A stretch of DNA of 20,404 nucleotides from positions 1 through 20,404 of the IMG/VR virus record IMGVR_UViG_3300048997_000492; one strand, given 5' to 3'. Numbering within the stretch: the first letter of the stretch is position 1; every line of letters starts with the position of its first letter. Shown one piece after another: positions 1 to 16,108 of the stretch. A program made the position numbers and the translations under genes. The notes below the pieces were generated by a model. The model made no database searches, was not told the origin of the DNA, and saw only the letters and a program-made list of their open reading frames with translations. Source of the DNA: a virus.

Positions 1-14
1 TCACCTAGTGAGCA

Positions 15-168
15 CTAGCGTGACGAGCACTGTGGGAAGTCGGTCTCGAGCCTGCAGGGCGTGTTGTTGCCGTGGCAGCCGGTCGTTGTCGGCTCTATGA
101 TCTCCTGGTCGAGCACGCCGTTCGCGGCGTTGTAGTGGAACGTTGAGGTCCGCGTAATCGTCGAACCA
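15..168 (-). pseudogene. RHS-repeat-like protein fragment
   Basis: On the minus strand one frame reads TSTFHYNAANGVLDQEI followed by EPTTTGCHGNNTPCRLETDF and then a stop at 17-15. The pattern of an aromatic FHYNA strand, VLDQE, then LETDF resembles RHS/YD-repeat proteins, whose repeats run like (L)xTxYxYDxxGNR. The piece has neither a start nor a complete repeat and loses the expected pattern after LETDF. It abuts the broken iscS copy at about base 169 in a different frame. I infer a remnant of a larger RHS gene or a chimeric join. The family call rests on pattern recognition only. Confidence 0.4.
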
Positions 169-459
169 AGTAATGATGTGATTGCCGCGGCGATTGGACG
201 ATCGCGTTACGCCCTGAAGCGCAAGGTTGTTCGCTTCGGTGGCGCCGGACGTGAAGATGATCTCTTGCGGGCGGGCGCCGATAAGAGCGGCGACCTCCGC
301 GCGCGCCTCCTCGACCGCCGCCGCAGCCCGCCGCCCCGCGAAATGCTCAGAATGCGGATTGCCGACGGCATTTGCTTCCAGGAACGGCAACAAGGCATCG
401 CGCACGCGTGGGTCGGTGGGCGTGGTGGCTTGGTTGTCGAGATAAATCGAATCGGACAT
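169..459 (-). pseudogene. iscS: cysteine desulfurase, N-terminal fragment (truncated)
   Basis: Cysteine desulfurases use pyridoxal phosphate to take sulfur from cysteine for iron-sulfur cluster assembly. The fragment begins SIYLDNQATTPTDPRV, the usual N-terminus, and continues through NPHSEHFAGRRA and IFTSGATEANNLALQG, where the conserved GATEANN loop contacts the cofactor. Homology stops after NRRGNHIIT. Family members continue with a TEHxxVL-type segment containing a cofactor-stacking histidine, but here the frame reads WFDDYADL and then unrelated sequence to a stop at base 1. About 97 of roughly 380-400 residues remain, and the catalytic lysine and cysteine regions are absent, so it cannot be functional. 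The ATG at 459 is preceded by AAGGTGGG, a good ribosome-binding site. The GTG at 465 is a less likely start. Confidence 0.8.
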
Positions 460-627
460 TCCCACCTTCTTGGCTAAGAAAAGTGATGATCAAACAGCGC
501 CTCAAACGCAAGTGTTCTTTTTACGTTCTGGTGCTGCCAGCCGCCCTATGAGCCGGCGGCGCGCCGAATCCGCCAAACACGCGCGCTGCTATCCTATCGT
601 AGCCCGCGCTACTAGGCAAATTTCTAA

Positions 628-684: not shown

Positions 685-1980
685 GTGGAAATCATCCCCC
701 GACATTTGACCGCCAGGGTTCAAGATTCTCTCCGGACGACGCGTGTCGTCAATCTCGTCGGTCCGCGTCAGACGGGAAAGACCACAATGGTCCGCGACAT
801 GGTGGCTGCGAGTCGCTTTCTCGATCTCGACGACGAAAGTCTCCTCGGATCGCTTGCAATGGATCCCTTTGGCCAGCTCAGCACCCTACTGGGTGAAGCC
901 AGCGACTCTGGGCTGCCTATCGTCATCGACGAGGTCCAGCGGTTGCCGCAGATAACGTTGGCGTTGAAGCGAATCGTCGATCGCGATCGCCGACCGGGCC
1001 AATTCGTCCTCACAGGCTCCTCCGACATCTTCACAATGCCGAAGGCGCTGGACACTCTTGCCGGCCGCGTATCCACGTTAACGCTGCGGCCGCTTAGCGC
1101 CGCGGAAATCATGCGGGTGGGACCCTGCGGGTTGCTTGACGCCGTCGGAGATGACCCGGAACTGATTGCAGAGAGATTGCCGGCCCCAGTTCCGTTTCGA
1201 CGCTCCGACGCGATCGACTTGCTTGTGCGCGGCGGCTTTCCCGAGATTCGACCATTGCCGGACCGGGACCGAATGGCCCGCTACGAATCGTATGTTGGCA
1301 GTATCGTGGAGCGTGATGTCGCGCCTGTCGCCGAGGTCCGAAGGCCGGACACCTTGCGTCGTCTGATCAACCAACTGGCCCATCGCACGGGGGAAGAACT
1401 CAACGTCAGCAGTCTGTGCAGCGCCTTGGGCGCGCGCAAGGAAACCGTAACGACCTACCTCGACGTTCTTTCGCGTCTCGGTATCGTGCATCGGCTCGGC
1501 GCTTGGAAGGCCTCCGGCGCACGCAAGGAGGTTCGGTCTCCGAAGTTGCATTTCATGGACACTGGTTGCGCGACCGCACTGCGGGGCGAAGATTCCGCGA
1601 GCTTCGGGTTTGGCGCCGATCCTGTAGCGCTCGGTCACGTCCTGGAGAGTTTTGTTTTCTGCGAGCTCGAAAAGTCTCTTCCGTTTCTCAGCCGACGCTG
1701 GGAGCTCTATCATTGGCGCTTTGCGCCGCGCGAGATTGACATTGTCGCGCAGGCGCCGGGCCGCATCCTCGCGCTGTTCGAGATGAAGGCCTCCACGACG
1801 GTTGCCGCGGACGACTTCCGTCATGTCGACTGGTTTCTCAAGGATGGTCCAGGCAAGTCCTACAAGGGATCGGCCTTCGTCGTTTATCTGGGCGACCAAG
1901 TCCTGTCATTCGGGCCGGGGCGCTTGGCCTTGCCCCTCTCCATGTTCTGGTCGTTTCCGGCCGAGGGGACCAAGGCATGA
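685..1980 (+). CDS. AAA-family ATPase with DUF4143 domain
   Basis: This 431-residue protein has a Walker A motif GPRQTGKTT (residues 26-34), a Walker B motif IVIDEVQ (79-85) and a sensor-like LTGSSD (109-114). This is the AAA_14 arrangement seen in DUF4143 proteins. The C-terminal half carries a winged-helix-like region and then REIDIVAQ...ALFEMKAS, whose D...ExK spacing resembles the PD-(D/E)xK-like fold of this family. Members are widespread in bacteria and archaea and usually lack an assigned role, so ATP hydrolysis is the only safe statement. It starts with GTG at 685 behind a weak GAGAG site. It is followed by a small gene and a serine recombinase on the same strand, so it may travel with that mobile module. 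Full length appears normal. Confidence 0.85.
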   Translation: MEIIPRHLTARVQDSLRTTRVVNLVGPRQTGKTTMVRDMVAASRFLDLDDESLLGSLAMDPFGQLSTLLGEASDSGLPIVIDEVQRLPQITLALKRIVDRDRRPGQFVLTGSSDIFTMPKALDTLAGRVSTLTLRPLSAAEIMRVGPCGLLDAVGDDPELIAERLPAPVPFRRSDAIDLLVRGGFPEIRPLPDRDRMARYESYVGSIVERDVAPVAEVRRPDTLRRLINQLAHRTGEELNVSSLCSALGARKETVTTYLDVLSRLGIVHRLGAWKASGARKEVRSPKLHFMDTGCATALRGEDSASFGFGADPVALGHVLESFVFCELEKSLPFLSRRWELYHWRFAPREIDIVAQAPGRILALFEMKASTTVAADDFRHVDWFLKDGPGKSYKGSAFVVYLGDQVLSFGPGRLALPLSMFWSFPAEGTKA

Positions 1981-2356: not shown

Positions 2357-4006
2357 ATGACCGTGCCGTTGCGCGCCGCCCTTTACCTGCGCGTCTCGAC
2401 GGCGCGGCAGGCCGAACATGATGTCTCTATTCCCGACCAACGCCGGCAAGGCGAAGCCTACTGCAAGGCGCGCGGCTATGACCTCGTCGAGACGTATGTC
2501 GAGCCCGGCGCCTCCGCCACGAACGACCGCCGCCCCGAGTTCCAGCGGATGATCGAAGCCGGTACGAGCAAGCCTGCGTCCTTCAACCTTGTTGTCGTCC
2601 ACAGCTTCTCGCGCTTCTTCCGCGACCATTTCGAACTCGAATTCTATGTCCGGAAACTCGCGAAGAACGGGGTGAAGCTGGTCTCGATCACCCAGGAAAT
2701 GGGTGACGACCCGATGCACGTCATGATGCGGCAGATCATGGCGCTGTTCGATGAATATCAGTCCAAGGAGAATGCCAAGCACGTCCTTCGGGCCTTGAAG
2801 GAGAACGCCCGCCAAGGCTTCTGGAACGGATCTCTGCCGCCGATCGGCTATCGCGTCGTGGCGGCAGAACAGCGCGGCGCCAAGGTGAAGAAGAAGCTTG
2901 AAATCGACCCGCTCCACGCCGACACCGTGCGCCTGATCTATCGACTTGCGCTCGAAGGCAACGGCGCCTCGGGACCGATGGGCGTGAAAAACATCGTCAC
3001 ATGGCTCAACGGCCAGCGCATTTTCACTCACGACGGCGGGCGTTGGGGCATCGGACAGGTCCATCGCGTCCTGACGCGGACCACCTACATCGGTCGCCAT
3101 GAATTCAACAAGCGGGCGAAGACGAAGGAATTGAAGCCGGTCAGCGAAATCGTTGCCGTCGAGGTGCCGCCTCTGATCGATCAGGCGACGTTTGATGCGG
3201 TGCAGGCGCATCTGCGCTCGCGTAATCCGAAGGTAACGCCCGCTCGCGTCGTAAGTGGTCCGACACTGCTGACGGGAATCTGCTTTTGCGCCCGCTGCGG
3301 CGGCGCCATGACGCTCAGGACCGGCAAGAGCAACCGCTACCGGTACTACACCTGCTCGATCAAAGCCCGACAGGGTGAGACAGGATGTACCGGCCGGTCC
3401 ATCCCCATGGCGAGGCTGGACAGCCTTGTTGCGGAGCATATTGCCGATCGGCTGCTCCAGCCGGCCCGGCTGGAAGAGATATTGGCGGTCGTTTTGGATC
3501 ACCGCCAAGAGCGCGCCGAGCGGAGGCGCGAGAATATTGGCGAACTCAACAGACGTGCCGCCGAAACGGAGCTGCGCCTGAAGAGGCTGTACGATGCCAT
3601 CGAATCCGGTGTCGCCGACCTGGAGGATCCCGCGCTGAAGGAGCGGATCGCCGGTCTGAAGGCCATCCGGGATCAGGCGAAAGCCGATGCCGAGCGCGCC
3701 CAGGCCGCGCTGGAAGGCGTCGGCCAGGAGGCGATCACGCCGGCAATGGTCAGGAAGCTCGCCGCTGTTGCCCGCGATCGTATGACGATCGAAGGGGGCG
3801 GTTACCGGCGGGATCACCTGCGGGCGCTTGCCCAGCGGGTCGAGGTCGGTGACCGCGAGGTCCGCATCATGGGGTCGAAAGCCGACCTTCTACGGACCCT
3901 GACCGCCGCCGCCGGCGTAAAATCGGCGGCCGGCGGCGTTCGCAGTTCTGTTCTGAGTTGGCGGATGGGGTGTCCGTTCGGTCGGGCTGCTAAATCAAGT
4001 GGTTAG
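2357..4006 (+). CDS. large serine recombinase / integrase
   Basis: Large serine recombinases cut and rejoin DNA at attachment sites through a covalent phosphoserine link. The 549-residue protein starts with the resolvase domain: ALYLRVSTARQ places the catalytic serine at residue 14 and its partner arginine at 12, with the further arginine-bearing segment VVHSFSRFFRD. A Recombinase domain follows, then a zinc-ribbon segment (CFCARCGG...YYTCS...GETGC, about residues 309-345). After that comes an arginine/glutamate-rich predicted coiled coil (about 375-455), as in integrase-type members. ATG 2357 is preceded by GAGGAG. No tyrosine integrase is present, so this is the best candidate for integrating the phage to its right, although it could belong to a separate element. 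The last ~20 residues look atypical. Confidence 0.93.
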   Translation: MTVPLRAALYLRVSTARQAEHDVSIPDQRRQGEAYCKARGYDLVETYVEPGASATNDRRPEFQRMIEAGTSKPASFNLVVVHSFSRFFRDHFELEFYVRKLAKNGVKLVSITQEMGDDPMHVMMRQIMALFDEYQSKENAKHVLRALKENARQGFWNGSLPPIGYRVVAAEQRGAKVKKKLEIDPLHADTVRLIYRLALEGNGASGPMGVKNIVTWLNGQRIFTHDGGRWGIGQVHRVLTRTTYIGRHEFNKRAKTKELKPVSEIVAVEVPPLIDQATFDAVQAHLRSRNPKVTPARVVSGPTLLTGICFCARCGGAMTLRTGKSNRYRYYTCSIKARQGETGCTGRSIPMARLDSLVAEHIADRLLQPARLEEILAVVLDHRQERAERRRENIGELNRRAAETELRLKRLYDAIESGVADLEDPALKERIAGLKAIRDQAKADAERAQAALEGVGQEAITPAMVRKLAAVARDRMTIEGGGYRRDHLRALAQRVEVGDREVRIMGSKADLLRTLTAAAGVKSAAGGVRSSVLSWRMGCPFGRAAKSSG

Positions 4007-5520: not shown

Positions 5521-5796
5521 ATGGACGAGGGGGAGCGGTGGCCCAATCTGCGCGCCGCCGAGGAGGAGATCAGCCGCGAGAACGGCAGCGACGCGGGGCG
5601 CTGGCTGACCGCCGGCCTCGCCGCCGGCGGCGTCGTGCTGGCGTTCATCAACGAAACCGCGCTCGCCGGCGCGGTGCTGGCGCTGATCGCGGTCGTCAGC
5701 CTCGGGACGATCTACCAGCAGCGGCGCCGGCTGCGCCGCGCGTTCGACGAGGATCGGCGCGCCGGCGGGCACGCCACGGACGATGATCCGGGCTAG
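5521..5796 (+). CDS. small membrane protein, two predicted transmembrane segments
   Basis: The 91-residue protein has a charged N-terminus (MDEGERWPNLRAAEEEIS) and two hydrophobic segments, roughly residues 28-43 (LTAGLAAGGVVLAFI) and 47-63 (LAGAVLALIAVVSLGTI). It ends with an arginine-rich, acidic tail (QQRRRLRRAFDED). It probably sits in the inner membrane with its positive tail in the cytoplasm. ATG 5521 has GGGAGA upstream. The 3' end overlaps the convergent repressor gene by four bases, and both stop codons come from one CTAG tetramer. A superinfection-exclusion or lysogeny-accessory role is conceivable from position, but no family was recognised. Confidence 0.6.
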   Translation: MDEGERWPNLRAAEEEISRENGSDAGRWLTAGLAAGGVVLAFINETALAGAVLALIAVVSLGTIYQQRRRLRRAFDEDRRAGGHATDDDPG

Positions 5797-6617
5797 CCGG
5801 TGACCAGCTCGACGATGCCGATGATGACGGCCTGGTCCTCGGAACGGGCGCGGTATTCGATCGTCGGTTTTTGCGGGATGAACGACAAGGTGCGCTCGCT
5901 GAGGCCGCGCAGCCGGCGCGAACCCTCCTGGATCGTCGGATTGTGCGGAATGCGCCGGTTGGTGCTGACCGTCGACAACGTGATGTCGCCCATCTGGTTC
6001 TGATCGACAAAGCCGAACAGCACCTCGCGCGTGATCCCGTCGCCGCCGAGCTCGCCGTCGAGAAAGCGCACCAGGATGCGCTGCAAGCGCGGCAGCACGG
6101 TAGGCTCCGCCGGATCGATCGGCCGGACGAAGATCATCGCTCCCTTGCGGAAGAGCTTGTCGGCGCTGTCGTCGTCGAGCTCGGCGACAAAGCATTCCTC
6201 GGGTTTGGCGAGCGGCTTTGGCGCGCCCTCGTATTCGTCGCCGGCGAGGTCGAAATTATCGCGCCGGCCTTCGCGTTCCTGGGCCGCGACGATCAGCTTG
6301 ATCGGCAGCGCCATGCCGGTCGCGCGCTTGAACAACTCATTGAACGGAACGCCGAGATGCGGCGCGATCTGCCGCGCGCGCTTTTCGCCGAGCGGCCGAT
6401 CGCCGCGTTCGAGAGCCCCATAATAGCTGTTGCTGATGCCGACCAGGCGGGCGAACTGGCGCTGGGTCAGCTGCGTCCGGCTCTCGCGCAGCTCCTTCAG
6501 GCGGTTTTCGTAGGACCGCTGTCTGCCCGGCTCGGCCTTGCGTCCGGACTGTTTGCGCGCCGGCGCGGTGCGGTCCGCGGGCGGCAGTTTCCGGGCGATT
6601 TGCGCGATCCGAGCCAT
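5793..6617 (-). CDS. CI-like phage repressor, HTH plus S24-like C-terminal domain
   Basis: This 274-residue protein has an HTH_3/XRE-like domain at about residues 40-95 (RLKELRESR...LTQRQFARLVGISNSYYGALERGDR). The C-terminal domain resembles LexA/CI (S24) proteins: ECFVAELDDDSADKLFRKGAMIFV aligns with the usual xDDSM-type serine segment (serine 151). In the place where a catalytic lysine is expected the sequence reads GITREVLFG, with arginine. It faces away from a small Cro-like gene, the classic arrangement of a lysogeny switch. ATG 6617 was chosen because the longer frame to 6692 would begin upstream of the predicted promoter. No strong ribosome-binding site precedes it. Confidence 0.8.
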   Translation of the reverse strand: MARIAQIARKLPPADRTAPARKQSGRKAEPGRQRSYENRLKELRESRTQLTQRQFARLVGISNSYYGALERGDRPLGEKRARQIAPHLGVPFNELFKRATGMALPIKLIVAAQEREGRRDNFDLAGDEYEGAPKPLAKPEECFVAELDDDSADKLFRKGAMIFVRPIDPAEPTVLPRLQRILVRFLDGELGGDGITREVLFGFVDQNQMGDITLSTVSTNRRIPHNPTIQEGSRRLRGLSERTLSFIPQKPTIEYRARSEDQAVIIGIVELVTG

Positions 6618-6664
6618 GCCCGGAAATATGACCGCGCCGGCAACTCGCGGATTTGCTCGCGGGG

Positions 6665-6692
6665 CATATAACACCCTTGCACATTCGCTCAA
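6665..6692 (-). promoter_or_regulatory. putative repressor promoter (leftward)
   Basis: On the minus strand, TTGAGC (6692-6687), a 16-base spacer and TATATG (6670-6665) form a plausible sigma70 promoter about 48 bases upstream of the repressor ATG. It overlaps the rightward promoter, as expected for mutually exclusive lysogeny-switch promoters. Confidence 0.45.
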
Positions 6693-7310: not shown

Positions 7311-7612
7311 CGCTCGAGCTCGAGCTCCGCATCGCCTCGCTGCGCGCCGGGCTGGCGTTCGCCGGCAAGGCGCACCGCAAGGTGATCCAGGCGATGATCG
7401 ATGCGCTGAGTGTCGAAACTGCACCCTCACCCGTCATCCCGGCGGTTGCCGGGATGCCACCCTCTCCCGCGGTGCAGGAGAGGGGCGGGGCCGCAGCGAG
7501 GTCGGCGGTGTGGCTGACCGAGGGCATCGAGACTGCACTGTCGATCGCACTGCTGACCGGCGGCAGCGCCGACCCGACGCTCTATCCGCCCGGCCTCGCG
7601 GTGCCGTGGTGA
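7307..7612 (+). CDS. composite small protein with REP-derived and Toprim-derived segments
   Basis: This 101-residue frame begins with a normal-looking helix (MTLELELRIASLRAG...AHRKVIQAMIDALSVE). It then passes through a proline-rich stretch encoded by a double hairpin (SPVIPAVAGMPPSPAVQERG) and a segment SAVWLTEGIETALSIALLTG that nearly repeats residues of the downstream Toprim gene (SAVWLTEGIEDGLSIALLTG). It ends DPTLYPPGLAVPW. The gene overlaps both neighbours by four bases (ATGA at 7307, GTGA at 7609), so the operon structure has been kept. The N-terminal ~35 residues probably represent the original protein, with the rest acquired by insertion and recombination. No enzyme activity is expected from the isolated Toprim strip. 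Confidence 0.55.
   Translation: MTLELELRIASLRAGLAFAGKAHRKVIQAMIDALSVETAPSPVIPAVAGMPPSPAVQERGGAAARSAVWLTEGIETALSIALLTGGSADPTLYPPGLAVPW
7435..7484. repeat. REP-like double hairpin inside coding sequence
   Basis: CATCCCGGC (7435-7443) pairs perfectly with GCCGGGATG (7448-7456) around GGTT. Next to it CCCTCTCC (7460-7467) pairs with GGAGAGGG (7477-7484). Two adjacent GC-rich hairpins of this type are typical of repetitive extragenic palindromes in alphaproteobacterial genomes, normally between genes. Here they are translated in frame. Confidence 0.6.
7501..7564 (+). repeat. partial direct duplication of Toprim gene segment (copy 1; copy 2 at 8397-8460)
   Basis: Bases 7501-7524 are identical to 8397-8420, and 7525-7564 match 8421-8460 with nine differences by hand count (55 of 64 identical overall). 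Both copies are read in the same phase and encode SAVWLTEGIE..LSIALLTGG. Copy 2 lies in the intact Toprim gene; copy 1 is an isolated strip in the preceding gene. Confidence 0.8.
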
Positions 7613-8775
7613 GCGCCGCGCCCGCCTCGAATGTGCGGCGGCTGGTGCCGATGGCCGACATTGTCGGCGGGCTGGCGGTGCGGATCGAGAGTTTGACGCG
7701 CGAATTGTTGCCGCGCGGGCGGCGCGAGGGGCACGAGTGGAGCGTCGGCTCGCTCGCCGGCGAGCCGGGATCGTCGATGAAGGTGCATCTCGGCGGGCTC
7801 AAATCCGGGTTGTGGCACGATTGGGCATCGGGCGCCGGCGGCGATGCGCTCGACCTGGTCGCCGATGTGCTGTTCCGCGGCGACAAGAAGCTCGCGGTCC
7901 GTTGGGCGCTGACGTGGCTCGGGTACCAGTCGGGCGAGGCGCCGGTTGCGTTGAAGAAAGACGTGGATGCCCGGGCCGCGCCCGGGCAAGGGGATGAGGA
8001 AGAGGCGCGGCGGCGCGGGGCGGCGTTCCGGATGTGGCTCAGCGCGCAGGCCGCGCTGAAGGGCACGGCGGCCGAGCTTTATCTGCTGGGGCGCGGCATC
8101 GATCTGGCCGAGCTCGGGCGCCAGCCGCGGGCGCTCCGGTTTCACCCGCATCTGTGGAACGAACGCTCGCAGCGCCACTGGCCGGCGCTGGTCGCCGGGA
8201 TCAATCGCGCCGACCCGGGCGGCAGCCGGCAGGTCGCGGTGCATCGCACCTGGCTGACCCCGGACGGCATGAAGGCGCCGATCGCCGACGATGCCGGCAA
8301 GAGCGAAGCCAAGCTCAGCTATGGCTCGTATCGCGGCGGGTACATCCCGATCTGGCGCGGCGCCGGCGGCAAATCGCTGAAGGACGCGGCCGCGGGGTCG
8401 GCGGTGTGGCTGACCGAGGGGATCGAGGACGGCCTCTCGATCGCGCTCCTGACCGGCGGCGCCGAGCGCGTGTTGGCGACGGTCAGCCTCTCGAACATGG
8501 GGTCGCTCGCGCTGCCGCCGGCGATCGCCACGGTGGTCATCGCGGCGCAGAACGACCCGTGGTGGAGCGACAAGACCGAGCGCGGCCACGGCGCCGCCAA
8601 GGGGCTCGATCGGGCGATCCGGCATTTCCAGGGCGAGGGGCGCGAGGTGCGGCTGTGGCGGCCGCCGGCGTCGTCGCACGGGGGGGCGCACGGGGCGGCC
8701 GGCGAGGCGTCGGGGAAGGACGCCAACGATTACTTGCGGCAATTGGCAAGCGAAGGGGGAAACAAATGCGCGTGA
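7609..8775 (+). CDS. Toprim-domain primase-like protein
   Basis: The protein has 388 residues from the GTG at 7609, which overlaps the previous TGA. The N-terminal part (VHLGGLKSGLWHDWASGAGGDALDLV) resembles the fold after the zinc finger in DnaG-like phage primases, but no CHC2 cysteine set is visible. A middle region follows, including LRFHPHLWNE. The C-terminal Toprim domain has AVWLTEGIEDGLS with the conserved glutamate, and VVIAAQNDPWW where DxD is usual; here the first acidic residue is Gln. It ends with KDANDYLRQL, common to Toprim_3 phage proteins. The likely role is primer synthesis at the phage fork, upstream of the helicase. A REP-like palindrome encodes part of residues 120-127. 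Confidence 0.8.
   Translation: MSAAPASNVRRLVPMADIVGGLAVRIESLTRELLPRGRREGHEWSVGSLAGEPGSSMKVHLGGLKSGLWHDWASGAGGDALDLVADVLFRGDKKLAVRWALTWLGYQSGEAPVALKKDVDARAAPGQGDEEEARRRGAAFRMWLSAQAALKGTAAELYLLGRGIDLAELGRQPRALRFHPHLWNERSQRHWPALVAGINRADPGGSRQVAVHRTWLTPDGMKAPIADDAGKSEAKLSYGSYRGGYIPIWRGAGGKSLKDAAAGSAVWLTEGIEDGLSIALLTGGAERVLATVSLSNMGSLALPPAIATVVIAAQNDPWWSDKTERGHGAAKGLDRAIRHFQGEGREVRLWRPPASSHGGAHGAAGEASGKDANDYLRQLASEGGNKCA
7968..7988. repeat. REP-like palindrome embedded in primase-like gene
   Basis: TGCCCGGGC (7968-7976) and GCCCGGGCA (7980-7988) form a perfect 9-bp hairpin with a three-base loop, preceded by GTGGA. The word resembles the common alphaproteobacterial REP core. It is translated as part of a polar linker (DARAAPGQGDEEEA) between the N-terminal and middle regions of the primase-like protein. 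Confidence 0.5.
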
Positions 8776-9520: not shown

Positions 9521-9934
9521 ATGGCGAAGCCTTCTCTTTATGCCGGCGCTGGCCCGTCGCTTTTCGAGGCGATAAAGCAGCTCGCCGATCGCGACCCCTT
9601 CAGCGTTGTGGCGATTGGCGACATAGCGGCTGAGCGCCTTCGCCAGATCGAGCAGGAGGGCTGGACGCCCGCGCACGACGATGAGGAACACAAGAGCGGC
9701 GATCTGGCCTTGGCCGCAGCAGCGTATGCCAAAGCGCCACACACGCATCGCCGGCGGGATGCTCCGAGGCCAGCATGGTGGCCCTGGCACAACGACTGGT
9801 GGAAGCCGCGATCAAAGCACCGGAACTGTGTAAGGGCCGGAGCGCTGATTGTAGCGGAGCTCGCGCGCTGGGGCCGGAGCGCCACTGCAACGAAAAGTGG
9901 CGACAGCGCGGCTGACCGCAAGAGCACGGCATGA
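9521..9934 (+). CDS. conserved phage-type hypothetical protein
   Basis: The 137-residue protein has VAIGDIAAERLRQIEQEGWTP, then HDDEEHKSGDLALAAAAYA, a tryptophan cluster PAWWPWHNDWWKP and CVRAGALIVAELARW. This set (AERxRQIExEGWT, HDD, WPW...WWKP, RAGALIxAE) recurs in many phages and bacteria and has no known function to me. Codon use is less GC-biased than its neighbours: 16 of the first ~61 codons end in A or T. It precedes the helicase with a four-base ATGA overlap. The N-terminal 30 residues are a variable extension. Confidence 0.65.
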   Translation: MAKPSLYAGAGPSLFEAIKQLADRDPFSVVAIGDIAAERLRQIEQEGWTPAHDDEEHKSGDLALAAAAYAKAPHTHRRRDAPRPAWWPWHNDWWKPRSKHRNCVRAGALIVAELARWGRSATATKSGDSAADRKSTA

Positions 9935-11754
9935 AGAGCGCCAACATTGTCTCGCTGAAGGATGCCGCCAAGGTGCCGGCGGCGCCGGCGGCGCCGGCCG
10001 GGGATGGCGGCGACGGCGATGTCGGGCATGGGAGCGGGCCGCCGCCGGGGTTGCCGGTCGATTGCCCGGTGATGCCGTTGGGCATGTCGGCCGACGGGCG
10101 CAATTTCTACTATCTCGATGCCGGGCAGCGCCTCGTCGTCAAGCAGGAGAAGGAGCATTCGCGGCTCGGAATCCTGGGGCTCTTCAATCATCGCTGGCAG
10201 GTGTTGCAGGATTACTGGCCGCGCCTCACCAAGGTCAAAGACGAGAAGACCGGCGAAGTTGATTACATCGCGACCGGCTGGAAACCCGAGCGCGCCGCCG
10301 AGGAGCTGATCGCCGAGTGCGGCCGGCGCGGCACCCTGAACGTCGCCGACCGGGTGCGCGGGCCGGGCGCCTGGCGCGCCCCGGACGGCGCCCTCATTCT
10401 CCACTGCGGCGACCGGGTGCTGGTCGGCGGCCAGTGGGTCAAGCCGGGCGAGATCGCAGTGCCGGGCGCGCCGTCGGGCACGATCTATCCGGCGCACGCC
10501 CCGACCCCGGTCCCGGCCGACAGTTTCGCCGCCGGCGGGTCGCACGGACCGGCGGCCGAGGCGCTGGAATTGTTCCGCGGTTGGCAATGGAAACAGCCCG
10601 AATTGGGCCCGCATCTGCTGTTGGGCGCGCTCGGCGCAGCGAAGCTCGGCGGCGCCTTGCGCTGGCGCCCGACGATCTGGCTAACGGGCGAGCTCGGCAG
10701 CGGCAAATCGACGTTGTTCGAGTACCTGGCCGCGCTGTGCGGCGAGGGCGGGGTGCATCTGACCGTCGATACGACGCCGGCCGGGGTGTGGCAGCGCACG
10801 CGGCATTCCTCGCATCCGGTGATGATCGACGAGGCCGAGGCCGAGAACGATCCGCGGCGCATGTCGGGCATGATCAAGCTGGCGCGCGCCGCGTCGTCGG
10901 GCGGCGTCGTCTATCGCGGCGGCAGCGAGCACGCGGCGGTCGAATTCCAGATCAAGGGGTGCTTTGTCTTCGGCTCGATCCTGTTGCCGGGGCTCAGCCC
11001 GCAGGACCGCTCGCGGATCACCGTGCTCGAGCTCGCGCCGCTGACCGGGATCAAGCCGCCGGTCATCTCGGCCTTGAAGCTGAAGGCGATGGGCGAGGCG
11101 TTGACGCGCCGCCTGGTCGACGGCTGGCCGCGTCTCAACGAGACGTTCGAGCGCTACCGCGAGGCGCTGGCCGAGGCCGGGCACCGGGCGCGCGGCGCCG
11201 ACCAGTACGGCATCCTGTTGGCCTGCGCCGACCTCCTGCTGTTCGACCACAACGAGGCGACCAGCGACGAACTGGACCGCTGGTGCGAGCTGTTGCCGCC
11301 CGAACCCGATGCGGCGCGCGACCATCAGAATTGCGTCGCGCATCTGATGACGGCGGCGATCGACCCGTATCGCGGCGGCGGCAGGCGGACGATATCGCAA
11401 TGGCTGGTCGACGCGATCTCCGGCGATCCCGACCAGCCGGCGACCGCCAACCGCGTGTTGGAGACCTATGGGCTCAGCGTCGAGATCGAGTCCGCACCCG
11501 GCTGGGTGCTCGGCCAGCCGCCGCTGACCCCGCTGCGCTGGCTCTACGTCGCCAACACCCATCGCGGCCTCGCACAGCTGTTCGAAGGCTCGCACTGGGC
11601 CGGGCAATCGGGCACGTCGAGCCCATGGGTGCAGGCGCTGCGGCGGGTGCCCTATGCCGTCGCGACCGAAAAAATGCGGTTCGCCGGGTACGGCGCGCGC
11701 GCCACCAAGCTGCCGCTCGATTACTTGCTCAAGGGCTGCGAGGGCAGCGAATGA
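9931..11754 (+). CDS. phage replicative helicase-like ATPase (DUF927/D5-like)
   Basis: The 607-residue protein has an N-terminal low-complexity Ala/Pro/Gly stretch (residues 15-48). A region resembling the substrate/primase-linked part of DUF927 proteins follows (60-200), then an ATPase core. That core has Walker A GELGSGKST (253-261), Walker B VMIDEAEAE (297-304), and downstream helices with GCFVFGSILLPGLSPQDRSRI, in which Q/D-R-S-R probably includes sensor and finger arginines. Such proteins unwind DNA at phage and mobile-element forks, usually paired with a primase like the Toprim protein upstream. It is the last gene of the early operon and is followed by an iteron-like noncoding region. 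The family call (DUF927 versus other D5-like) is uncertain. Confidence 0.75.
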   Translation: MKSANIVSLKDAAKVPAAPAAPAGDGGDGDVGHGSGPPPGLPVDCPVMPLGMSADGRNFYYLDAGQRLVVKQEKEHSRLGILGLFNHRWQVLQDYWPRLTKVKDEKTGEVDYIATGWKPERAAEELIAECGRRGTLNVADRVRGPGAWRAPDGALILHCGDRVLVGGQWVKPGEIAVPGAPSGTIYPAHAPTPVPADSFAAGGSHGPAAEALELFRGWQWKQPELGPHLLLGALGAAKLGGALRWRPTIWLTGELGSGKSTLFEYLAALCGEGGVHLTVDTTPAGVWQRTRHSSHPVMIDEAEAENDPRRMSGMIKLARAASSGGVVYRGGSEHAAVEFQIKGCFVFGSILLPGLSPQDRSRITVLELAPLTGIKPPVISALKLKAMGEALTRRLVDGWPRLNETFERYREALAEAGHRARGADQYGILLACADLLLFDHNEATSDELDRWCELLPPEPDAARDHQNCVAHLMTAAIDPYRGGGRRTISQWLVDAISGDPDQPATANRVLETYGLSVEIESAPGWVLGQPPLTPLRWLYVANTHRGLAQLFEGSHWAGQSGTSSPWVQALRRVPYAVATEKMRFAGYGARATKLPLDYLLKGCEGSE

Positions 11755-11864
11755 CGGCTGGCATGACTGTAGGCACCACTATGGGTATTTGGCGCGGCCG
11801 CATCGTTGACTGTCGCCCACACCCATTAGGTGACTATCAGGTCCCGCACGCGAGGGTTGAAACT

Positions 11865-12124
11865 GCCACGCTGTTGCCACGCTGTTGCCACGCTCAAAAG
11901 GGGAACGCGTGGCAGGGATTGTGGTGGTTCGTCAACGGGTTAGGGAAGGTGCCACGCTTGCCACGCCGAAAACGAGCCCCTAATGAACCGCGCGAGAGCG
12001 GGCGGGCGCGCACATCATGGGGATACCGTGGCAACCGTGGCACCGTGGCACTATACAAATCTCTCTTTACGATCAGAGAGATAGATTGCCACGGTAAGTG
12101 CCACGCTGTCGCAGCGAGCGTGGC
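11865..12124. repeat. GCCACG iteron-like array, candidate origin or regulator region
   Basis: GCCACG begins at 11865, 11876, 11887, 11951, 11960, 12088 and 12100, and its complement CGTGGC at 11908, 12027, 12036, 12044 and 12119: twelve copies in 260 bases. The first three form tandem 11-bp units (GCCACGCTGTT twice, then GCCACGCTCAA), about one helical turn each. An AT-rich stretch with an 8-bp hairpin lies within (12052-12085). The array fills most of the only gap longer than 300 bases in the window (11755-12178), between the helicase and packaging genes. The layout resembles an iteron-type origin or a cooperative binding region. Confidence 0.65.
12059..12082. repeat. 8-bp inverted repeat in AT-rich stretch
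   Basis: ATCTCTCT (12059-12066) is complementary to AGAGAGAT (12075-12082) across an eight-base loop. It lies in the least GC-rich part of the noncoding region, between clusters of inverted and direct GCCACG motifs, and could be a DNA-unwinding element or promoter-associated operator. No clear sigma70 pair was found next to it. Confidence 0.4.
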
Positions 12125-12178
12125 AGCGCGCGAGGCCGCCCGGCCGGAGGCTGAGAACCGAAAAACAAACCGGGCGAT

Positions 12179-12715
12179 ATGCTGATGGCCGGGGAACAGA
12201 CGGCGATCGCCGAGGTGCTGGCGGCAGAGGGCGGCACGATCGGTGGCGGGCTTGAGCCGGAGCTCGATCTGTTCGCTGCGCCGAAGACGGCGGAGGGCCA
12301 GCGCAAGGGCGGCCAGATGGCGCCGCTGAAGGGTCCGGGGCGGCCGGCCGGGGTCAAGAACAAGCGTACCCTGCGCGACGTCGAGATCCTCTTGGGCACG
12401 CATCTCGACCCGCGCGCCAAGGCGCTGTGGATCGTCGAGCAGCACCCGGCCGACCTCGCGGCGCTGTGGCACTGCAAGGTGTTCGAGGCGGCCCAGGAGC
12501 AGCGGCTGTGGGCATTGGGCGTGCTGCCGTATGTCGCGGCGCGGATCACGCCCGAGATCATCGACAACCGCCAGGTCATCCACCTGCATTTCAACCCGGT
12601 CGCGGAGGGCGGCGCGGCGGCGGCGAGCGGCGCGATCCGGGTGCTGGAGGCCGCCGATTACGAGGTGGTGGCGGATATACCCTCCGCCGCAACCGATGCG
12701 AATTCAGGGGGTTGA
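12179..12715 (+). CDS. possible terminase small subunit or packaging-linked protein
   Basis: The 178-residue protein contains a basic GPGRPAGVKNKRTLRDVEILL (about residues 50-70), a pattern common near the N-terminus of phage small terminase-like or DNA-binding proteins (KGxGRPxGxxNKxT). A helical region HLDPRAKALWIVEQHPADLAALWHCKVF and EQRLWALGVLPYVAARITPEIID follow, with a variable tail. It is the first gene of the packaging operon, two genes upstream of the large terminase. Recognition of foreign or own DNA ends is inferred from position. ATG 12179 and ATG 12185 are both possible starts; neither has a strong ribosome-binding site. Confidence 0.5.
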   Translation: MLMAGEQTAIAEVLAAEGGTIGGGLEPELDLFAAPKTAEGQRKGGQMAPLKGPGRPAGVKNKRTLRDVEILLGTHLDPRAKALWIVEQHPADLAALWHCKVFEAAQEQRLWALGVLPYVAARITPEIIDNRQVIHLHFNPVAEGGAAAASGAIRVLEAADYEVVADIPSAATDANSGG

Positions 12716-12718
12716 GCG

Positions 12719-12958
12719 ATGACGGTCGAGGCATCCTACAAACCGTCACACAGAGCGAGCGTCCGCATCCCGTTCCGCGAGCGCGTCACGTGCACGCTGG
12801 GCGAGGCGATCGAGGCGACCGGGATCAGCCGCTCGCACCTCTACCGGCTGCGCGCCGCCGGCCGGGTCGAGACCGTGATGGTCGACGGGCGGCGGCTGTG
12901 GCGGGTGCGCTCGCTGCTCGCCCTGGTCGGGGACGCCGGCGCCGGGGACGCGCCGTGA
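12719..12958 (+). CDS. small HTH (excisionase/MerR-like) DNA-binding protein
   Basis: In this 79-residue protein the core reads TCTLGEAIEATGISRSHLYRLRAAGRVETVMVDGRRLWRVRSLLALV. This is a winged-helix pattern of the excisionase/HTH_17 type, with recognition helix SRSHLYRL and a wing ending in a V-DGRRLWR strand. Such small proteins act as excisionases, transcription factors or small terminase partners. Its location directly before the packaging genes makes a DNA-end recognition or late regulatory role plausible. ATG 12719 lies three bases after the previous stop, behind GGGGG. Confidence 0.75.
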   Translation: MTVEASYKPSHRASVRIPFRERVTCTLGEAIEATGISRSHLYRLRAAGRVETVMVDGRRLWRVRSLLALVGDAGAGDAP

Positions 12959-13110
12959 GCCGCGATCTAGGGGGGGTACCCCCGGTTTCGACGGCCGACC
13001 ACCCCATCTGCCCCTGTCGGTGTGCTTTGATCGCCGGCTGGGAGTTTGGCTCGAAAGCGGAAAAGGGGATCCAGCCGTCGCGGGTCGGGGCGGGGAGCGC
13101 CGGGGCATGA
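12955..13110 (+). CDS. possible tiny protein bridging HTH and terminase genes
   Basis: A 51-residue frame starts at GTG 12955, overlapping the previous TGA as GTGA. It ends at TGA 13108-13110, overlapping the terminase ATG 13107 as ATGA. It reads VSRDLGGVPPVSTADHPICPCRC and then ALIAGWEFGSKAEKGI. The cysteine trio CPCRC could bind metal. Flanking four-base overlaps on both sides match the coupling of neighbouring genes, which is the main support. A G-run/C-run palindrome (12972-12983) lies inside. No family was recognised; it could also be an untranslated spacer holding a packaging site. Confidence 0.4.
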   Translation: MSRDLGGVPPVSTADHPICPCRCALIAGWEFGSKAEKGIQPSRVGAGSAGA

Positions 13111-14654
13111 CCGATCTCAACTGGCGGCCGCCGGGACCGATTTCGGCGCAGTTCCTCGCCTCGCGCGCCGAGATGGCCATCATCAACGGCCCGGTCGGGT
13201 CGGGGAAGACGACGACGAATTTCTTTTTCCACCTCGGCAAGGCGCAGCAGCAGCGGCCGTCGCGCGGCCGGCTGATCCGCCTCCGCGGCGAGCGCGCCGA
13301 TCGGCCGCTGCGGCGCTACTGGCTGACCGTGCTGCGCGACGATTACCGCCAGCTGTGGCGCTCGACGATCCCCTCCTGGCAGCAGCACTTCCCGGCCGAA
13401 GAGGGCTGGAGCGGCGCGGTCAACGCGCCGGCGCGGCATCGGATCATCTTTCCGATGGACGACGGGACCGCAGTCGAATTCACCGCCGAATTCGTCGCGC
13501 TCGGCGACAACGACATCGAGGAGTTCATGCGCGGCTACCAGCCGACCTCGTTCTTCCTCAACGAGATCGACACGCTGCACCCCGATGTCCGAAAGCATGC
13601 CGGGTTTCGCGTCGGGCGGTTTCCGCCGCGCAGCGAGGTCGAGCTCGACTGGTACGGCATCACCGGCGACTGCAACGCGCCGATCATCGACGGCGAATTC
13701 TACAACAGCGTGTTTATCGGACGCCCAGCCGGGACCGAGCTCTACCGCCTGCCGGGCGGGCTCGATCCCGGCGCGGAGAATTTGCAGAACCTGCCGGAAG
13801 GGTATTACGAGCGGCAGATCCGCTCGATCGCCGACCCGTATCTGGTCCGCCGGATGGTGCACAACCAGCCGAGCCCGTCGCGCTCGGGCAAGCCGGTGCA
13901 CGACGATTTCAACGATTTCCTGCATGTCGCGCCGGCGGACATCGCGCCGGTCGCCGGGCTGCCGCTGATGGTCGGGTACGATGCCGGGCTCGACCCGGCG
14001 GCGGCGATCGGCCAGAAGCTCGGCAACGGGCGCTGGAACATCATCGACGAGCTGGTCAGCCCGCACGGCACCGGCGCGGTGCACTTCGCGCGGCTTGTCA
14101 ACGAATTCCTCCTTGAGCGCTATCCGCAATGGCACTCGATCCCGCTGCTGCCGCAGCTCGGGATCCACCTGGCCGATCCGGCGATGCATCTGCGCCCGGG
14201 CAACATCCGCGCCTGGTGCGATCCGGCGGCGACCTATGGCGGCGACACCAACAGCGCGGCCGAGGCCGACCGCACCTGGTGCGAGCTGGTCGCCTACCAC
14301 ACCGGGATCCGCATCTCGCCGGCGCCGACCAACAACACGACCGAGCGGCGCGCCGGGTTGCAGCGCGTCTTGACCCTGATGCCCGACGGCAAGCCGGCCT
14401 TCGCGCTCAGCCCTCGCTGCAAGATGATCCGGGCGGGACTTGCCGGCCAGTTCCGCTATCGCCGGATGCAGATCGCCCGCGAGGAGCGCTACGCCGACGA
14501 GGTCGACAAGAACGTCCACAGCCATGTGTGCGAGGCGCTCGAGTACCTGATGCTCGGCGGCGGCGAAGGCGCCGAGGTGCACGAGCGCCGCCAGCGCGGC
14601 TGGGACACGCGCTCCCTGCCGCGGCAAGCACAAGACGATTGGAGGTTGGGGTGA
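13107..14654 (+). CDS. phage terminase large subunit
   Basis: The large terminase is the ATP-driven motor and nuclease that packages DNA into capsids through the portal. The 515-residue protein has Walker A GPVGSGKTT (residues 28-36), a Walker B-like segment TSFFLNEID (147-155) and a nuclease domain opening with LMVGYDAGLDPAAAIGQ (D292). It closes with YADEVDKNVHSHVCEALEYL, like the HxxDALxYL ending of this family. ATG 13107 follows a GGGGAGCGC-type site. Length is normal. It lies upstream of a portal of the podovirus head-to-tail connecting type. The packaging strategy (cos or pac) cannot be read from this sequence. Confidence 0.9.
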   Translation: MTDLNWRPPGPISAQFLASRAEMAIINGPVGSGKTTTNFFFHLGKAQQQRPSRGRLIRLRGERADRPLRRYWLTVLRDDYRQLWRSTIPSWQQHFPAEEGWSGAVNAPARHRIIFPMDDGTAVEFTAEFVALGDNDIEEFMRGYQPTSFFLNEIDTLHPDVRKHAGFRVGRFPPRSEVELDWYGITGDCNAPIIDGEFYNSVFIGRPAGTELYRLPGGLDPGAENLQNLPEGYYERQIRSIADPYLVRRMVHNQPSPSRSGKPVHDDFNDFLHVAPADIAPVAGLPLMVGYDAGLDPAAAIGQKLGNGRWNIIDELVSPHGTGAVHFARLVNEFLLERYPQWHSIPLLPQLGIHLADPAMHLRPGNIRAWCDPAATYGGDTNSAAEADRTWCELVAYHTGIRISPAPTNNTTERRAGLQRVLTLMPDGKPAFALSPRCKMIRAGLAGQFRYRRMQIAREERYADEVDKNVHSHVCEALEYLMLGGGEGAEVHERRQRGWDTRSLPRQAQDDWRLG

Positions 14655-15779: not shown

Positions 15780-16108
15780 TGGCCGACACGCTGGGCACCC
15801 GCACGCGGCAATCGTTCCAGAAGGAACGCATCGACCAGGGTGACCACACGCGGTTTCACACCCGCGATCTCGGCATGACCAAGCTGGTCACCGCCTCGAT
15901 CACCTTTGGCGGCGGCAATGCAACCGGCGCCAACGGCACCTTCACCGGCACCTTCATCGTCGGCGACCCGGTGCTGATCGAGGGCGCCAACCTCAACAAT
16001 TCGTACTTCATCGTGACCGCGCTCGACGCGGTCAACGCGGCGTTCCTGACCCTCGACCCGCCGCCCCAGGCCGAAGGGCCGATCACCGTCACCCTGAGAA
16101 CGCCATGA
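15779..16108 (+). CDS. small beta-rich hypothetical (virion-like) protein
   Basis: The 109-residue protein reads VTASITFGGGNATGANGTFTG, FIVGDPVLIEGANLNNSYFIV and FLTLDPPPQAEGPITVTLRT. Strand-rich, glycine/asparagine-rich sequence with few helices is typical of virion decoration or fibre-like proteins. The N-terminal MADTLGTRTRQSFQKE is charged. The ATG overlaps the previous stop (ATGA). The family is not recognised. Confidence 0.6.
   Translation: MADTLGTRTRQSFQKERIDQGDHTRFHTRDLGMTKLVTASITFGGGNATGANGTFTGTFIVGDPVLIEGANLNNSYFIVTALDAVNAAFLTLDPPPQAEGPITVTLRTP

Follow-up and report, generated by a model that had tools for sequence, protein, structure and literature searches.

The window analysed here, a 20.4 kb virus record, carries on its forward strand the gene for a Toprim primase (DUF7146 plus Toprim_3, PHROG 35358; 7510-8775), the probable partner of a 607-aa helicase (PHROG 21086; 9931-11754), followed by a putative small terminase subunit gene, terS (12179-12715), and the gene for the large terminase subunit, TerL (13020-14654). 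TerL is 34% identical to TerL of phage BcepC6B; terS was assigned from its position upstream of TerL, and homologues were recovered in 32 loci with an iterated profile. In Pfam, no family matched the helicase, TerS or TerL significantly. The ATP-binding core of the helicase has Walker A (residues ~253-260), Walker B (297-303) and a QDRSR arginine-finger-like motif, and a C-terminal DNA-binding-like domain spans residues ~456-600 (11299-11751, forward strand).

At the left end of the window, positions 1-465 (reverse strand) encode, as read from the translation, the N-terminal portion of a protein resembling cysteine desulfurase, a resemblance that ends further in, and a large serine recombinase is encoded at 2357-4006. 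Together these may mark a prophage attachment site within a host gene. A 431-aa ORF that looks like a DUF4143-type AAA ATPase (685-1980, forward strand) lies between this possible host flank and the recombinase.

The gap between the helicase gene and terS is occupied by twelve TGCCACG sites within 11864-12125, seven in forward and five in reverse orientation. The original prediction had described twelve GCCACG hexamers, seven direct and five inverted, in 260 bases directly after the helicase gene, with the first three units 11 bp apart and an AT-rich hairpin among them, and every element of this description was borne out. The hexamers start at 11865, 11876, 11887, 11951, 11960, 12088 and 12100 on the forward strand and at 11908, 12027, 12036, 12044 and 12119 on the reverse strand, and all 12 copies in 11865-12124 are enclosed by the TGCCACG heptamer. 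The array begins 110 bp past the helicase stop codon, and its first three sites (11864, 11875 and 11886) are indeed 11 bp apart, other close spacings being 8, 9 and 12 bp.

Across the 20.4 kb window, GCCACG occurs 25 times compared with a chance expectation of 26.7 ± 5.3, so the signal of the array lies in its clustering. In 200 simulated windows (second-order Markov), the maximum number of copies of any 7-mer per 262 bp averaged 4.5 and never exceeded 6, compared with 12 in the window; for 6-mers, the window again reached 12, against at most 9 in the simulations. The GC skew of the window showed no turning point at the array, and its cumulative maximum fell at 15782.

The twelve sites are arranged six on each side of a centre at ~11996, with successive spacings of 11, 11, 22, 42 and 9 bp on the left, 68 bp across the centre, and 9, 8, 43, 12 and 20 bp on the right. 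The left outer cluster (11864-11914) consists of sites at 11864(+), 11875(+), 11886(+) and 11908(-), which lie at offsets of -129, -118, -107 and -85 from the centre. It is followed by a left gap (11915-11949; 43% AT against a window mean of 33%) and by a left inner tandem pair (11950-11965, forward strand), whose centre-facing sites at 11950 and 11959 are 9 bp apart. The inner pairs converge on a central spacer (11966-12026; 68 bp site to site) that is not AT-rich. Beyond it lie a right inner group (12027-12050, reverse strand) of centre-facing sites at 12027, 12036 and 12044, a right gap (12051-12086), which is 67% AT and contains the hairpin ATCTCTCT/AGAGAGAT at ~12059-12082, and a right outer cluster (12087-12125) with sites at 12087(+), 12099(+) and 12119(-).

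A single-protein search of viral_contigs and genome_contigs gave no close relatives; an alignment-based search found them. A profile of three helicases led to sphingomonad prophages and viral contigs, and genome searches added more. When these loci were scanned for clustered repeats without a preset motif, a comparable array of one short repeat was present in 45 of ~55 helicase-bearing loci, usually downstream of the helicase and within 0-5 kb of it. The primase was present in all 42 analysed loci, and in distant ones it is fused to the helicase. Distant carriers include Bdellovibrio phage phi1422, Acinetobacter Acjo_20, Serratia MQ-4, Synechococcus S-H1, Bordetella PBb002, a human-gut phage and an Atlantibacter plasmid; in 7 of the 9 published genomes of such carriers, no other repeat cluster was as strong as the array. 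It accompanies the helicase in alpha-, gamma-, Bdellovibrio and cyanobacterial phages. A few phages lack the adjacency to the helicase (in Bordetella PBb002 the two are ~8 kb apart), and in Acjo_20 the array precedes the helicase. The Atlantibacter plasmid, pLH84-a-B, carries the primase-helicase together with the array, and no further replication initiator is annotated on it. The Phaeobacter phage-plasmid pP11_f also carries repA/repB genes, so the proposed array origin need not be its maintenance origin. Beside the replication module of pP11_f, a LuxR-type regulator and an acyl-homoserine-lactone synthase are encoded (locus L112, 36445-37718).

The original prediction had named conservation in close relatives as a check, and the outcome was divided: the repeat motif was not conserved, whereas the architecture was. 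TGCCACG in the window is replaced, depending on the lineage, by CGTTACC, GGTTCT, GGTTCCA, TGTTACC, TGCTACG, GGTTACC, GTTCCCA, CTTCCCA, ACCTAAC, CGTAACG, TATTATG and others, with 21 different repeat seeds among the 37 loci that have a defined centre. Read towards the centre, many of these repeats resemble a G-T-T-(A/C)-C skeleton, and we infer that they may have been altered by one or two bases per step. An architecture that is kept while the motif changes fits an initiator and an origin that co-evolve.

This architecture is a dyad. Arrays were aligned on the gap between converging sites, and across the 37 loci and 21 seeds the sites lie at about ±36, ±44, ±88, ±100, ±112 and ±132 bp from the centre. 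The order is that of a mirror, with an outer cluster, an AT-rich gap, an inner pair and a 70-90 bp centre, followed by the inverted counterpart. The two sites of each inner pair, ~36 and 44 bp from the centre, are 8-9 bp apart and face inwards; the outer sites at ~88, 100 and 112 bp face outwards, and the far sites at ~132 bp face inwards again. The inner pattern partly follows from the definition of the centre, but the outer sites do not, and these were strongly oriented on the right (70 forward vs 2 reverse) and also on the left (56 reverse vs 22 forward). After removal of the two defining sites, 50% of sites had a mirror partner, compared with 19% under random placement and a mean of 30% under the best null. 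In Bdellovibrio phage phi1422 the mirror is exact, with 6+6 sites spaced 9,10,15,63,8|90|8,63,15,10,9. Twelve was the commonest site count (14 of 45 loci), and the cleanest cases split 6+6.

On both sides of the centre, the AT excess is highest in the gap that separates inner from outer sites, with family means of up to +0.18 in the left gap and ~+0.3 in the right gap, where it is greatest. On sequence grounds, the right gap of the window (12051-12086) is the best candidate for an unwinding element. AT-richness, not a hairpin, is general across the arrays; besides the window, only a few relatives (L019, L063, L064 and L065) had a hairpin, and it was rejected as a defining element. A second array in one relative (L014, ~1326-1510) was also rejected, since its 13 GGCTAC copies all lie on one strand and resemble a microsatellite-like short tandem repeat.

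In four helicase loci (L068, L080, L081 and L083), the flanking DNA, roughly 6-18 kb to each side, contained no array, and a search of these loci with a geometry template gave background-level matches only. They form a chromosomal helicase subgroup, two members of which have an in-frame TGA in the helicase; these two stop-bearing loci may have decayed.

The AlphaFold2 model of the helicase has a mean pLDDT of 80.6 with a confident core. Its best matches among solved folds were the SaPI5 primase-helicase (Z 15.3) and SCCmec Cch (5dgk, Z 14.5), with Foldseek E values for the two of 2e-8 to 1e-6 and VIA Z scores of 14.5-15.3; further matches were PriRep1, poxvirus D5/E5 and MCM. Identity to the solved folds is ~10%, which indicates fold kinship and not close homology, and a helicase profile found no relative at useful E among the sequences of solved structures (PDB). 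Modelled alone, the C-terminal domain reached a pLDDT of 84.5, and its fold matches were weak (TcpK winged helix 5vfy, Z 6.0 over 96 residues; PriRep1, Z 3.3; Foldseek not significant).

The similarity of repeats between loci was then compared with that of the helicase C-terminal domain, the rest of the helicase, the primase, TerS and TerL in 42 loci. Repeat similarity correlated with the C-terminal domain (r 0.42), and the correlation persisted when the rest of the helicase was controlled for (partial r 0.30) and likewise with control for TerS, TerL or the primase (r 0.68, 0.64 and 0.40), each with a Mantel P of 0.0005, a value that is optimistic because the sequences are related and not independent. 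Conversely, given the C-terminal domain, nothing was left for the rest of the helicase (r -0.07), TerS (-0.03), TerL (0.03) or the primase (-0.16). When pairs were grouped by overall distance, the C-terminal region correlated best among near pairs (0.79), and among middle-distance pairs it gave 0.42-0.43, compared with 0.01-0.04 for the others. When mutual information with repeat class was computed column by column along the helicase, no specific reader residue emerged and specificity was not pinned to the C-terminal domain; the best columns were clade markers scattered over the protein. Taken together, the spelling of the repeat apparently changes in step with the C-terminal domain, which makes this domain the putative reader of the repeat.

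These correlations bear on the possibility that the array is a pac or cos packaging site bound by the small terminase subunit. Its position would suit this reading, as terS starts 53 bp downstream of the array and the same order, with the array directly upstream of terS, is found in most sphingomonad relatives. However, TerS did not track the repeat once the C-terminal domain was taken into account, while the converse correlation was strong. In Acjo_20, moreover, the array is ~4 kb from terS across the map ends, on the far side of other genes, and mirror symmetry suits bidirectional initiation more than one-way packaging. Five terminase relatives without this helicase also had no such array in the DNA examined, which covered only BcepC6B completely. 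A packaging site is hence improbable. In BcepC6B, seven CTACCC copies in both orientations adjoin the integrase gene (25.2-25.5 kb; locus L110, ~3201-3550); they are perhaps arm-type sites of the integrase.

A second alternative is an operator array, at which a repressor or activator would govern the late operon; the S24-like/HTH protein (5793-6692) or the small HTH protein (12719-12958) could fill this role, and repeats in both orientations upstream of late genes would be in keeping with it. A layout of ~260 bp with two AT-rich gaps, however, far exceeds usual operators, and arrays also occur in phages and plasmids with different regulators and downstream genes. The repeat, furthermore, tracks the helicase in a comparison that covered the helicase, primase, TerS and TerL. 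We give this alternative only a slim chance. A parS-like partition site, or a recombination or regulatory repeat unconnected to replication initiation, is highly improbable: iteron-like arrays can act as centromeres, but no ParA/ParB-like gene was recognised among the window proteins scanned, and the partition genes of Phaeobacter pP11_f are located away from its array.

The array at 11864-12125 is thus very probably an iteron replication origin, with the helicase as its putatively self-loading initiator and the C-terminal domain as the proposed reader of TGCCACG. The original prediction had left the choice between an initiator-bound origin and a cooperative regulatory region, and between the helicase and small HTH proteins as the binder. 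Of these options, the origin and the helicase gained support from the association of the array with the helicase, from co-variation with the C-terminal domain beyond that with the rest of the helicase, the primase, TerS and TerL, and from the fold match to the self-loading initiator helicases of SaPI and SCCmec. The roles of the array as origin, of the helicase as initiator and of the AT-rich gaps as opening sites are assigned because of the analogy with SaPI and PICI elements. In the mechanism that we propose, the helicase encoded upstream would act as a self-loading initiator, and its C-terminal domain would read the iterons, six per side of the spacer at ~11996. Two helicase assemblies, presumably hexamers placed head to head, would be loaded, one per half; the AT-rich gap at 12051-12086, and possibly the left gap as well, would open; and the Toprim primase (7510-8775) would prime the strands. 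Six iterons per half suggest one for each subunit of two hexamers; binding, hexamer number, melting site and replication start are all inferred.

An initiator helicase paired with an iteron origin is a known kind of replicon. In SaPIs, the C-terminal domain of Rep helicases binds iterons directly downstream of the gene, apparently as two hexamers (PMC7581432), and PICI segments made up of primase, helicase and origin replicate autonomously, with two iteron sets flanking AT-rich DNA (PMC6092414). The window resembles these systems in gene order, the genes for primase and initiator helicase coming first and the proposed origin lying immediately 3' of the latter, in having short iterons in two sets together with AT-rich DNA, and in the helicase fold class. 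Unlike in PICIs, where the iteron sets flank one AT-rich region, each half is split here, with the AT-rich gaps inside it and a centre that is not AT-rich; the primase is of Toprim type, whereas SaPI primases are archaeo-eukaryotic (PMC7581432). SCCmec Cch/Cch2 likewise share the helicase fold, and in Cch2 the C-terminal domain binds to direct repeats that follow the gene, but the putative Cch2 origin has only three iterons and no reported dyad layout (PMC7581432). The carriers described here also differ from satellites in that they appear to be complete phages, equipped with terminase and structural genes of their own: TerL is encoded in the window, and portal, capsid and tail genes are present in relatives. 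With packaging and capsid genes of its own, the element is not a PICI, although its replicon would work like that of one.

Phage P4 alpha with ori/crr, mentioned in PMC6092414, is similar in combining a helicase initiator with a cognate iteron site; it differs in that its alpha protein is a fusion and its sites are two and lie apart. The origins of SV40 large T antigen and papillomavirus E1 load two helicase hexamers at paired inverted recognition sites, as is proposed here, but with far fewer sites than the window array and with a DNA-binding domain that is N-terminal (PMC7581432).

What appears to be new is the carrier phage family, the strict dyad layout and the rewired repeats, and no earlier description of such arrays in such phages was found in the open-access literature. 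A broader proposal, which we put forward tentatively and at somewhat less than even confidence, is that these arrays form a widespread class of phage origin in which a fixed 2 x 6 dyad places two head-to-head hexamers, one subunit per iteron. Alpha-, gamma-, Bdellovibrio and cyanobacterial phages would all retain the scaffold, and the iterons would be rewritten stepwise with the C-terminal domain, giving each phage a private specificity of replication.

The arrays offer a natural series of initiator-origin co-evolution, in which one architecture carries more than 20 repeat spellings, each with its own helicase. How initiators switch recognition sequence and yet keep their origin thereby becomes approachable by domain swaps. 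The finding would also provide a simple rule for locating origins in unannotated phage genomes, and ordinary phages, both temperate and lytic, would share an origin organisation that has been described as restricted to phage satellites. The private iterons, finally, suggest that co-resident prophages may avoid cross-firing of each other's origins.
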